From NCBI GenBank assembly GCA_025558075.1, contig JAHLKF010000018.1:124001-188000 (forward strand): a stretch of DNA of 64,000 nt. The letters run 5' to 3'. The translations under genes and the position numbers were made by a program. The DNA comes from Gaertneriomyces semiglobifer (Eukaryota; Chytridiomycota; Chytridiomycetes; Spizellomycetales; Spizellomycetaceae). The notes beneath the pieces are model-generated. The model did no database searches. It was not told the DNA's origin and saw only the letters and a list, made by a program, of their open reading frames with translations. Of the stretch, positions 41,296 to 45,072 are shown piece after piece; position 1 is the stretch's first letter; each line of letters starts with the position of its first letter.

Positions 41296-41718
41296 CGCGA
41301 ATATATGCAAAAGCGCAACAAAGGACGAACAGATTCGCTACTGCAGTATAAAATTCTGGCCAAAGGAAGGCAGACAACGATCTCTGTCGTCCAACGAAAA
41401 CAGAATGCGGAATGCGGAGATGATGGTGGATGAGAACCGCCTTGCCGATCCACTCGCGAGACCAACAAGTTTCATTTCGGACGCACATTTCTGAACAGCT
41501 TACCCTACCCCTGCAGGGCAACCCGACCTGTGCCGCACAGTCACGCTATGGAGCTAACTGGAGCAAAACTCTCGTAAGTCGACATCACACTGCAATGCAC
41601 CACATCTATGTGATATTTGACATTGGCACTGGTACAACTTACACAAATACAGTTTGCAAATTGATACTTGTGCCATGTTGTCTGTGCTGCAGAGGGCAAG
41701 TGTTCTGATTTTCTAATA
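41296..41718. other. Spacer between importin beta and the EsV-1-7 gene
   Basis: Holds the importin beta promoter and the downstream flank of the EsV-1-7 gene. An antisense frame here (41521-41192) is open only because it reads through importin beta exon 1 and its intron. No separate gene is supported. Confidence 0.45.
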
Positions 41719-42507
41719 TCAGTCACATGGGTCACGTGAGCAAGGGCACATGATGCACGTGACTGATACGCATCGTTCGCCCGGCAGATGGGACGCGCAG
41801 TACTTTGCTCCGTCGTCCATGTTATCAGCCCATCGCGCCGTCGAAGTGCACCCCGGGTGTTCGCAGACCGGGGCGAGAGCATAAACGAAGCACTCGGGCT
41901 TGTGCGTGGAACAGTGGGTCTTGGCCCCACCAACTGTTGCGGCACAGGTTGCTTTCGTGGAGCAATCGGGGTGTTCACAAAGATCGTAGCCCGGAACATA
42001 ACCCTCCGGTTTGTGTGCTACGCAGTACTCGCGTGCTTTACCGGTCGGTGCACGGAAACTTGGGACAACATCGCAGCCGGGGTGGATGCAGCGGAAGTCC
42101 CGGTTAGGGTATTTTCGCGTGATCACCAGTCCGAGCAGTTTCCCATGCTCCGCGCAGTGCGTTGGCGACGCACCGAGATTATCGCCATAGCACGGTGTTG
42201 TCGTGCACCCGGGTTCGGCGCATTGTTGATGTTCGCGAGCTGGGACCAGATCCAGCAGCTTTCCGTGGACGGCGCAGTGGGTTTTTGGCCCACCAAGCGT
42301 CTCGCCGTAGCTGGCGATAGTACTGCAACCCAGGTGGGCGCAAGTGTTCCAAACGCGAGCCAGGCCCAGCGGCGTCCCATGGGTGTGGCAGTGAGTGGCC
42401 TTTCCCTCATTTCTTTCTCCAAACAGCGTCATCATCTTGCAACCGCGGGTTGCACACAGGTTTGGCGCTCTGGTGCGGACAAACCCCAGCGGCGTCCCAT
42501 GGGTCAT
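41719..42507 (-). CDS. EsV-1-7 cysteine-repeat protein
   Basis: The 262-residue frame is built almost wholly from six repeats of about 37-44 residues. Each has exact spacing C-X4-C-X16-C-X2-H: starting CATRGC, CAHLGC, CAEPGC, CIHPGC, CEHPDC and CEHPGC. Most repeats carry a G at mid-unit, a T-H or Y before the third Cys, and H-(G/K)-(K/P)-L-G after the His. This spacing defines the EsV-1-7 motif, first seen in a brown-algal phycodnavirus and expanded in brown algae, where IMMEDIATE UPRIGHT belongs. A zinc-binding fold is likely but inferred. The ATG at 42507 falls inside a repeat, so the original gene probably began further upstream. No introns, unlike almost every neighbour. The C-terminus ends in a Cys-rich tail (CIMCPCSRDPC). 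Confidence 0.72.
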   Translation of the reverse strand: MTHGTPLGFVRTRAPNLCATRGCKMMTLFGERNEGKATHCHTHGTPLGLARVWNTCAHLGCSTIASYGETLGGPKTHCAVHGKLLDLVPAREHQQCAEPGCTTTPCYGDNLGASPTHCAEHGKLLGLVITRKYPNRDFRCIHPGCDVVPSFRAPTGKAREYCVAHKPEGYVPGYDLCEHPDCSTKATCAATVGGAKTHCSTHKPECFVYALAPVCEHPGCTSTARWADNMDDGAKYCASHLPGERCVSVTCIMCPCSRDPCD

Positions 42508-42985
42508 GCAGTGAGTGGCCTTGGCGCCGACCGTTTTTCCAAACGATGGTACGGTCGTGCATCCGGGTTCGCCACATTGTGAGATCGCTTGGGTTAGGAC
42601 CAGACCCAGCGGTTTTCAGTGGACGCTGCAGTGGGTTTTTGACCCACCAACATTCTGGCCGTAGCTGGCGATGGTGTTGCAACCCAGGTGGGCCAGGCCC
42701 AGCTTCGTGCCATGGGTGTTGCAGTGAGTGGCCTTGGCGCCCATCTTTTTTGCAAGCACCGCGATCAGCTTACAACCGCGGTCTGCACACAGTTTTGGCG
42801 CTCTGGTCCCGACAATAGACTTCGCGCCGACCTTCTCTCCAAAGGATGGTCCGGTCGTGCAACCATCGTGGACACATTGTGCGTTCGCTTGTGTTCGGCC
42901 AGACCCAGCGGCTTTCCGTAGACGCCGCAGTGGGTAGACTTTGCGCCGACCTATTCGCCATAGCTAGCTCTCGTCTTGCAAGCAG
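42508..42985 (-). pseudogene. Decayed upstream EsV-1-7 repeats
   Basis: The same minus-strand frame continues upstream of 42507 with further repeat units. An intact one starts CGEPGC. Before it, TGA at 42618-42616 replaces the Gly codon after the SVH of a unit lacking its first Cys. Then come an intact unit starting CADRGC and a unit starting CVHDGC that has lost its Cys-His half. Further upstream, units are in another frame and carry a TAG. Blocks around 42456-42483 and 42786-42816 are near-identical, pointing to a ~330-bp duplication. The region looks like repeat units lost through stops, deletions and a frameshift. Confidence 0.65.
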
Positions 42986-44068
42986 TGTTGGCGCAGAACA
43001 TCAGGTCGAATTCTTAAAGGGTTGATGGTAAGGCACAGGAGGAAACACCGGAGCGGCCAAAGGCCTCAGCGATCGACGGTGAGGTAGGTAAAAAAGGTTG
43101 GCGGTAGATACAGGAGGAAACACGTTCAACTGTACTCTTAAGAACACCTTAGCTTACCAAAATATAATAAAGCGCACGTGACCACACAACTTACGTAACC
43201 GCTCCGCGACGAGTTCCCGTTGAGTTTTGGTTCCAACTTCGGTAAGTGCAGCAGGACCTGTCAGTTTTCTCACGATGGCGGATCTTCTAAGAGTACACTG
43301 ACATGTTCTTCTACCAATCAACACCTACTACTGTATATGTAAATGCAGCATACCAAAAATCACGATACACACAATATTACCCGGTTTGTAATTAATTAAG
43401 AACACTTGCAAAGCAGTAATCCTCTGTAACACCAACAACACGCCAACTTCCAAGTTTCATGTTGGTTGCTGGTAGTAAGCTTCTTAAAAAAGGACTCTCA
43501 TAAATTCATATTGTAGGAAGACCCAATTTTGCTTGCAAAGCCCTCAGGAAACAAACAAAACATTGAGCATTTGTTTAACTACTGGAAGATAAATGCTCTG
43601 AAGGCTGGCAGAGATATGGAACACTCAATACCAGTGCTTAATGAACAGAGAAAAGACAAGATTGCAGGCTCTAGGGCAATATACATGCATCATGATGCAA
43701 CTTGGACACAGGTCATGATACCTCTGAATTGGTGATCTGCCACCCTGGCAGAAATGCTGACATCTGTTCTATGACCATTCAAAATCCTTTCTGTTGTTGG
43801 CTCATGAAAGTGCACCAGTACAAAATTATCCAGAACCTGCTCTCACAGCAGAATCTTTGATGTAATGCATTAAACAGCAGAAAGAATTGTGACTATTCAA
43901 ACACAAAAAGTCATGTCTTGGGGTACATCTTGAATTTGACAGTATTGGCAAACTGCTATTGTTGAAAGACAATTGTTTTCGTTCCAGGCCAGCTGTGCTC
44001 ATTGTCTTTGTTGGCAACTGGCTGGGCTGTTAGGCACAGAGTGGGCTGGGAATATTCTAGATGGAACT
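42986..44068. other. AT-rich non-coding region
   Basis: Base composition drops to clearly AT-rich. A plus-strand frame at 43529-43735 is open but starts on TTG and resembles nothing I know. It may be a remnant of a mobile element. No intact gene. Confidence 0.4.
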
Positions 44069-44192
44069 GAGAAACTGACCAGATTTGTGATACGGATCTG
44101 TAATTCTCTGCAATAAATGGAAGGGTCCGATCAGGACTTCCCTTTGGTTAAGATCAAGATAGACACACAATACTGGTATTCAAACGTATGTG
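44069..44192 (+). repeat. LTR-like repeat, copy A
   Basis: Shares with copy B (44456-44580) the ordered blocks TTTGTGATA, TGTAATTCTCTG, GGTCC...TCAGGACT, TAAGAT, GTAGACAC-like AGATAGACAC and GGTATTCAAAC. Upstream is a GGAATATTCTAGA stretch. The layout resembles the promoter half of copia-type LTRs. Confidence 0.5.
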
Positions 44193-44455
44193 CAGCAGCT
44201 AGTACACAATCTCACCCATGTGTAACATTGTACAAAGTTTGAAAACAAGTTCAGAATGAAGATGGACCATATCACCTGTGAACCTGCTTCACTCTCAGAT
44301 AGTGCAATCCTTTCAACAAGCACAAAAGCTTGATCAGTGTTGGAAGACAATGAGCATGGACTGTGCTGGAACATTCTGGAAGGTGACACCTAGATAGAAG
44401 TTTCTGTAGGAATGAGCATCCTAGATAGAAGCTTCTGTAGGAAAGTGCCACCACA

Positions 44456-44580
44456 GAGAAGTAATCAGTTTGTGATAAGGGTTTGTAATTCTCTGTTATA
44501 AAAGGAGGGGTCCTCTCAGGACTCCTCCTGGCTAAGATTAAGGTAGACACCTACAATACATTGGTATTCAAACCTATCTT
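44456..44580 (+). repeat. LTR-like repeat, copy B
   Basis: Second copy, 387 bp from the first, with a TATAAAAG at 44497-44504. Just upstream CTAGATAGAAG(T/C)TTCTGTAGGAA occurs twice (about 44389 and 44420). No retrotransposon coding sequence is seen between or beside the copies, so these would be solo or degenerate elements. Confidence 0.5.
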
Positions 44581-44590
44581 CAATAATCAG

Positions 44591-45072
44591 TCCCCAAATA
44601 ATCTGCAACCGTGACCCAGTACAACCAACCTCTGGGGATACTTGCACAACTGTACAAAGAAACCAAGAAAAGATTCATTCTCAGATAGTGCACTCCTTTA
44701 AGCAAGCACAAACGCTTGATAGGTCCCCAAATACTCTGCAACAGTGACCCAGTACAACCAACCTCCTGTGATGCTTGCTCAACTGTACAACAAAATCAAG
44801 AAACGATTTCCTCTCAGATGGTGCAATCCATTAAACAAGCACAAAAGGTTTATCATTCCCCAAGTCCACTGCAACAGTGAGCCAGTGCAACCAATCTTGT
44901 GTGACTTGCTCAGCTGTACAATGAAATCAAGAAAGGATTCCCACACAGGTTTGAGACTTCTTTTAAAAAGGATGAAACTTGATCAGTCACCACATGAACT
45001 GCGATGGTGAGCCAGTACAGCCATCCTCTTGTAATGCCTGCTCAACTGTACCATAAAATCAAGAAAAGGATG
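44591..45072. repeat. Tandem array of a 133-bp unit, about 3.6 copies
   Basis: Units start at 44591, 44724, 44857 and 44987 (133, 133, 130 bp and a partial). Each begins TCCCCAA or a variant, contains CAACTGTAC and AATCAAGAAA, and the first two end with the AAGCACAAA...TTGAT block. A partial unit (AGATAGTGCAATCCTTTC) also lies upstream at about 44288-44338, before the LTR-like copy B. Copies have diverged. Confidence 0.75.

Follow-up and report, generated by a model that had tools for sequence, protein, structure and literature searches.

The EsV-1-7 repeat array carried by this fungal genome is best read, at a probability of roughly 0.6, as the decayed remnant, lacking its nuclease, of a giant-virus-type gene for an array-guided endonuclease, whose complete members would both read and cut DNA and which was likely acquired from large DNA viruses. 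The array lies in the window, by which we mean the whole 64-kb stretch of DNA analyzed here (C18:124001-188000 of a 66-contig, 20.9-Mb assembly). Under this reading, a complete member would consist of an N-terminal EsV-1-7 array followed by a C-terminal PD-(D/E)XK-like endonuclease. The individual units would probably bind zinc and most likely each read part of a DNA sequence, with the C-terminal domain cutting at the site recognized by the whole array, so that the protein would be nature's equivalent of a zinc-finger nuclease. Such an array-nuclease may help its own gene to move or act in the competition among giant viruses, and the fungus would have acquired genes of this kind, probably more than once, most likely from large DNA viruses.

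On the minus strand, positions 41719-42507 of the window hold six consecutive units that follow C-X4-C-X16-C-X2-H exactly, as an earlier reading of the letters alone (the sequence-only reading) had counted, omitting the strand. That reading identified the units as the EsV-1-7 motif and named the Pfam model EsV_1_7_cys as a check; this model (PF19114) scores the open reading frame (ORF) at 83.5 bits, above its curated cut-off of 25 bits, with an E value of 8.9e-24, which excludes a chance match. The window thus shares with the EsV-1-7 domain family its repeated unit. The array extends beyond the six units, however: a six-frame scan of the whole window finds eight strict units in a single frame between 41788 and 42789, two of them (42499-42576 and 42712-42789) upstream of those already noted, and about three degenerate units carry the array to approximately position 43000. 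The features of the locus are as follows.

41719..42507, minus strand: ORF of 262 residues with six strict EsV-1-7 units
41788..41865, minus strand: strict unit 8 (CEHPGC...CASH)
41902..41979, minus strand: strict unit 7
42013..42090, minus strand: strict unit 6
42145..42222, minus strand: strict unit 5
42265..42342, minus strand: strict unit 4
42379..42456, minus strand: strict unit 3
42499..42576, minus strand: strict unit 2, within which the 262-residue ORF starts
42616..42618, minus strand: in-frame TGA within the array, where the equivalent site of the duplicated downstream block has a glycine codon
42712..42789, minus strand: strict unit 1, past the in-frame TGA
42790..43001 (approximate), minus strand: two degenerate units in two differing frames, the outer one with a TAG; decayed start of the array
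41717..41768, no strand: inverted repeat with two 22-base arms that are 82% complementary; here the ORF ends and the array is cut off

Two stops and one frameshift interrupt the array. The first ATG of the ORF (42507) falls in the middle of a unit (HC-M-TH), and the TGA lies in a block that is 74% identical in DNA to a duplicated three-unit block over 333 aligned bases. Among the outer units, one is without its first cysteine, one is shortened, and the outermost sits in another frame with the TAG. At the opposite end, the last residues of the ORF are encoded by a 42-base dispersed repeat (41720-41761) with at least 21 further genomic matches at 90-93% identity from the scoring of 40 out of 67 candidates, embedded in a longer repeat in all four of the copies that were fetched. 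With its tail in a dispersed repeat and an inverted-repeat setting around it, the array breaks off against repeat DNA. The frame is open over 298 codons. Given the mid-unit ATG, the TGA upstream, and the repeat-derived tail, the ORF amounts to an open stretch, free of introns, within a broken array rather than to a demonstrated gene. The description of an intronless gene in the sequence-only reading is accurate as to the absence of introns, but an intact acquired gene does not fit an array broken at both ends: the stops, the frame change, the start within a unit, and the borrowed end together mark the window copy as incomplete.

The same reading had placed the array beside repeat-rich DNA, and dispersed repeats, an inverted repeat, and tandem copies are indeed found there. 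The 42-mer within the inverted repeat of 41717-41768 is rich in CACGTG, and four of its copies lie about 3.9 kb apart on contig C6, resembling a tandem array. Further along the window, a dispersed repeat at 44336-44585 has at least 16 near-full-length genomic matches (80-96% identity), another at 44016-44197 has several further matches or more (74-86%), and at 44582-45066 a unit of about 130-133 bp occurs four times in tandem.

No nuclease half accompanies the array. Six C-terminal pieces used in tblastn gave nothing over noise beside it, and a nuclease-domain profile run across all six frames of the window reached a best E value of 0.8; as positive controls, the same profile recovers the related loci on contigs C10 (L028, 5.6e-32), C1 (L029, 2.2e-30), and C5 (L027, 1.7e-9). 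The window copy is without a nuclease part, and a dispersed repeat abuts the array at that point. Its 5′ stops and frameshift indicate that it is probably non-functional.

The control loci are three further EsV-1-7 loci in the same genome, to which a weak fragment on C16 (E 1.4e-4, one TGA) can be added. The C1 gene (C1:935716-937317; L029:717-2318, minus strand) encodes 534 residues from its own ATG with no stop and is the only relative found intact in the genome; its units are of a Cys4 variant (C-X-C...C-X2-C). The C5 and C10 copies are broken, and all three loci carry the C-terminal nuclease-like domain that the window copy is without. By eye, the C1 gene adjoins an acyl-CoA-dehydrogenase-like gene, and an open frame resembling a Tc1/IS630-type transposase (L028:3908-4441, plus strand) lies beside the broken C10 copy, near the end of its nuclease part. 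These other loci, the nuclease half of the family, and the decay of the window copy had all escaped the sequence-only reading.

A query made of the window repeats alone found five proteins, and all five share a C-terminal domain of about 170 residues, across which no Pfam family scores over its cut-off. Profile searching from those five yielded 498 proteins, the best 120 of which were taken; a query with the C1 protein yielded at least 122, and the best 120 of these 122 were taken, 119 of them new. A nuclease profile matches 122 of 122 proteins (P0001-P0122), a set that was drawn with nuclease-bearing queries and that includes the 25 proteins from which the profile was built. Among the 119 new proteins from the C1 search, likewise obtained with a nuclease-bearing query and from only those 7997 candidates sharing most words with it that were scored, 96 have the domain and 23 are without it by profile, so that arrays also occur without the nuclease.

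This C-terminal domain looks like a PD-(D/E)XK nuclease, having both the PD and acidic core residues and profile similarity to a member family. In all 25 aligned domains, P64, D65, E78, D80, E81, Q83, and H84 are invariant, and the motifs P-D, E-x-D-E-x-Q-H, and R-x-N-P-D are invariant or nearly so; 5 of the 122 proteins depart from E-x-D-E-x-Q-H, with ENAH or ENRH, for example. Weak Pfam matches extend to 19 families, five of which we take to belong to the PD-(D/E)XK superfamily: Hjc (2.2e-4), DUF2726 (1.8e-4), TPD (0.022), AHJR-like (0.028), and DUF559 (0.14), each match coming from one or two of the 25 members. NCBIfam likewise gives a weak match to Hjc (1.1e-4, two of 25 members), and PHROG 9084, annotated as a homing endonuclease, is matched by 5 of the 25 (best 4.8e-5). 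The remaining weak matches, to 14 of the 19 Pfam and seven of eight NCBIfam families, fall outside the superfamily and include NTPase_1 (0.0026), dCTP deaminase-like (0.025), and AAA_18 (0.028); one PHROG match is an HNH endonuclease (0.056).

Aligned by hhalign against nine sequences of the Vsr-like family DUF559, the domain gives a P value of 4.5e-5 at a probability of only 68.8%, compared with P values of 0.097-0.80 for nine controls (one reversed, eight shuffled); the alignment pairs RPDF...VVEVDExQH with VDF...VVEVDGxxH, and IRFNPD with LRF. A search of PDB sequences with the C-terminal domain returned no solved-structure match, only one chance-level hit (E 1.7), and it is by sequence profiles that the domain is assigned to the nucleases. 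The nearest nuclease families are DUF559, DUF2726, and PHROG 9084. Relative to these, the domain has E-x-D-E-x-Q-H in place of E-x-D-G-x-x-H and an extra R-x-N-P-D, and the relatives have a long N-terminal cysteine/histidine array.

The same arrangement is found in a virus. Protein 534L of chlorovirus PBCV-MA1D (347 residues) has five Cys4 units followed by the same C-terminal domain (E 1.4e-15), whereas the window copy has Cys3His units and no nuclease part. GTDB genomes contain 90 pattern-matching stretches, three of which encode relatives, all on contigs of metagenome-assembled genomes (MAGs). The best of these lies on a 23-kb contig binned in a Planctomycetota MAG (L040 / L072, G001:C25), which encodes a 12-unit EsV-1-7 nuclease-like protein together with DNA_pol_B_2 and, judged by eye, a Rab-like GTPase as well as ankyrin-type repeats. 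The contig has the look of giant-virus DNA that was binned wrongly. A capsid search of three MAG genomes, including that of L040, gave no match, which does not by itself establish absence. Two single-protein and four alignment scans of IMG/VR found no relative, a result that is no evidence of absence because the giant-virus content of that collection was uncontrolled; one protein query each of phage and plasmid collections found none either.

Other named sources of arrays are Effrenium voratum (P0174) and Tetraselmis sp. (P0143, P0173), whose listed proteins are without the nuclease domain by profile. One Tetraselmis array protein is named RING-type by its source, and Pfam finds no family in it. 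The arrays of P0143, P0173, P0174, and P0239 are of the Cys4 type, none of the four proteins matching the nuclease profile; by eye, the E. voratum tail resembles a different PD-(D/E)XK type, and that of P0239 also differs but appears nuclease-like. No fungal names occur among the named protein-database matches, although most entries are nameless and the result bears only weakly on fungal orthologs. Most metagenome matches come without an organism or context from which a giant-virus share could be counted.

A quick tree built from 127 pieces of the domain places C10 together with P0103 and a further seven environmental proteins (support 83); C1 falls in the opposite half, beside P0007 and P0107 (support 88). 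C5 falls in the same half as C1 on a long branch, flagged along with other long branches, and its placement is unsettled; the C5 and C10 rows are short, covering 43% and 48% of columns. This topology would fit at least two separate origins for the copies in this genome.

The genome itself is probably fungal, as the sequence-only reading had assumed: the chitin-synthase domain Chitin_synth_1N has four matches in it and none in 14 control genomes. These controls are prokaryotic as far as they are named, and the contrast therefore leaves other eukaryotes possible. We take this domain to be a fungal marker. The neighboring genes that could be identified are cellular, encoding ornithine decarboxylase, an ISWI-type SNF2 protein, TOR, Nup93, a HEAT-repeat protein, a Metallophos/ASMase-like protein, and Rad50. 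Elsewhere in the assembly, two fragments of the NCLDV capsid domain Capsid_N exceed the curated cut-off, on C8 (L043, C8:2516-2773) and C15 (L044, C15:12122-12355); both lie near contig starts, and one has a stop. These fragments suggest that the host lineage probably met large DNA viruses. Taken with the chlorovirus relative, the relative on the giant-virus-like contig, and the position of the C10 nuclease part apart from that of C1, they make a foreign source possible. To that extent, the acquisition proposed in the sequence-only reading, perhaps from a large DNA virus, still stands, and its donor and direction of transfer go beyond what the data show.

The absence of a nuclease from the window copy could also reflect domestication into a DNA-binding protein of the kind hypothesized for the EsV-1-7 proteins of brown algae, with the fungus keeping the reader and losing the cutter, so that the 298-codon stretch would be a working DNA-binding gene. 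The stretch is stop-free in its 3′ part, with both stops and the frame change confined to the shorter 5′ part, and arrays without this nuclease domain do exist, as in the Tetraselmis proteins. When the units are compared in pairs, dS is finite for 20 of the 28 pairs, and dN/dS is below 1 in 19 of those 20. The ratio between the duplicated blocks is, however, 0.67 with a 95% interval of 0.41-1.15, which does not prove neutrality but reaches past 1, and the first ATG lies in mid-unit and the tail in a dispersed repeat. We consider domestication unlikely. Another explanation is that the family is an old fungal one, inherited vertically, with a motif that viruses and algae hold in common by ancient descent. 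Three more loci and a fragment show that the family is no one-off in this genome, and since C5 is unsettled and shares one large branch with C1, not every copy need have an origin of its own. Against this, C10 and C1 lie on opposite sides of the quick tree, and the window array shares only 31-34% identity with the repeats of C5 and C10, so that we regard purely vertical descent as having only a small chance of being correct.

Two further explanations concern the locus as a whole. A giant virus might have left a larger endogenous insertion in this chromosomal region, with the window array as one of its genes; the capsid-domain fragments in the same genome and the elevated G+C content of the array (0.60, versus 0.48-0.55 in 11 measured neighboring reading frames) could be cited in favor. 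However, the search for hallmark genes, which covered Capsid_N, found matches on C8 and C15 only and none on C18, and the genes identified on both sides, among the part of the window's reading frames that was examined, are cellular, which makes such an insertion quite improbable. Contamination or a chimeric assembly has nothing seen in its favor: the 64 kb of the window come from a contig 408 kb long, cellular eukaryotic genes flank the array, and the adjoining repeats recur on many contigs of the assembly. We give this explanation hardly any weight, and favor a decayed copy of an array-guided endonuclease gene.

If such arrays read DNA, residues that make contact with it might be expected to vary between otherwise similar units. 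We compared 555 strict units with a period of 38, from 118 of 241 proteins, and calculated for each position the within-array difference, scaled by between-protein variation and relative to the average position, with a bootstrap over proteins, some of which are related to each other. Among similar units (at least 65% identity, 66 proteins), the excess is 1.67 at position 9 (95% interval 1.50-1.88) and 1.57 at position 36, with positions 5, 33, 11, and 35 below these two. At 75% identity or more (39 proteins), position 36 reaches 2.09 (1.53-2.58), position 9 2.01 (1.60-2.44), and position 35 1.79; position 11 is at 1.37, its interval extending down to 0.95. Of the 555 units, 486 have S, N, H, or D at position 36, and 424 have R, Q, I, or T at position 9. 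The excess at positions 9 and 36 would fit a DNA-reading module, which does not prove these to be recognition residues.

Nucleotide changes within single arrays give a mixed picture. In the five units of L041, positions 7, 8, 9, and 11 have a pN of 0.50 and a pS of 0.07, compared with 0.11 and 0.26 elsewhere; the excess at these positions is weak in the 10 units of L040 (pN 0.41, pS 0.36) and absent in C1 (pN 0.33, pS 0.71), whose six Cys4 units are not equivalent in numbering. Position 36 covaries with position 9 in the unit that follows (z 3.9 with 20 shuffles, all proteins), although this is not the strongest of 492 pairs; with similar proteins removed, the value was reached by 2 and 10 of 500 shuffles, a weak signal that we treat as a lead only. 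After the same removal, covariation fades between positions 11 and 36 (33 and 87 of 500 shuffles) and between 9 and 11 (82 and 37 of 500), and that between 33 and 36, within the linker, was reached by none of 500.

Macaisne et al. in 2017 reportedly described the EsV-1-7 domain family, including the gene EsV-1-7 of Ectocarpus virus EsV-1 and IMMEDIATE UPRIGHT (IMM). Compared with the Cys3His unit of that family, the fungal C1 gene and PBCV-MA1D 534L have a Cys4 form. The family is patchily distributed across eukaryotes and present in several viral genomes (PMC7457493), with 90 members in Ectocarpus species 7 (PMC12629598). In two sources (PMC12993054, PMC7457493), IMM is described as acting in early sporophyte development, and the role of the repeat is given as a hypothesis only, that of a zinc-finger transcription factor. 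Most relatives found here differ from the family as these sources present it in having the array N-terminal to a nuclease-like part. The portions of the EsV-1-7 literature searched contain no mention of a nuclease fusion, which does not make such a fusion unpublished. One parallel comes from PMC12477816, in which the Ectocarpus transposase TcMar-2_Ec32 has an N-terminal EsV-1-7 domain. It resembles our relatives in placing the module N-terminal to a DNA-cutting enzyme, but that enzyme is a mariner-type transposase and not a PD-(D/E)XK-like nuclease.

A broader reading, which we find conceivable but hold only tentatively, would make EsV-1-7 arrays a modular DNA-reading system, in which units of about 38 residues touch short DNA stretches through positions 9, 36, and perhaps 11. 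In giant viruses, the arrays would direct a PD-(D/E)XK-like nuclease to its target, and IMM and its relatives, the Ectocarpus mariner transposase, and the fungal remnants would be offshoots. The window copy itself is a relic only, and its value lies in the family architecture that was reached from it. Arrays that front nuclease-like proteins in a chlorovirus, a giant-virus-like contig, metagenomes, and a fungus suggest a testable function for the EsV-1-7 repeat, namely sequence-specific DNA binding, for which the hypervariable positions in similar units would be the first residues to probe, and viral targeting modules would be a plausible origin of EsV-1-7.
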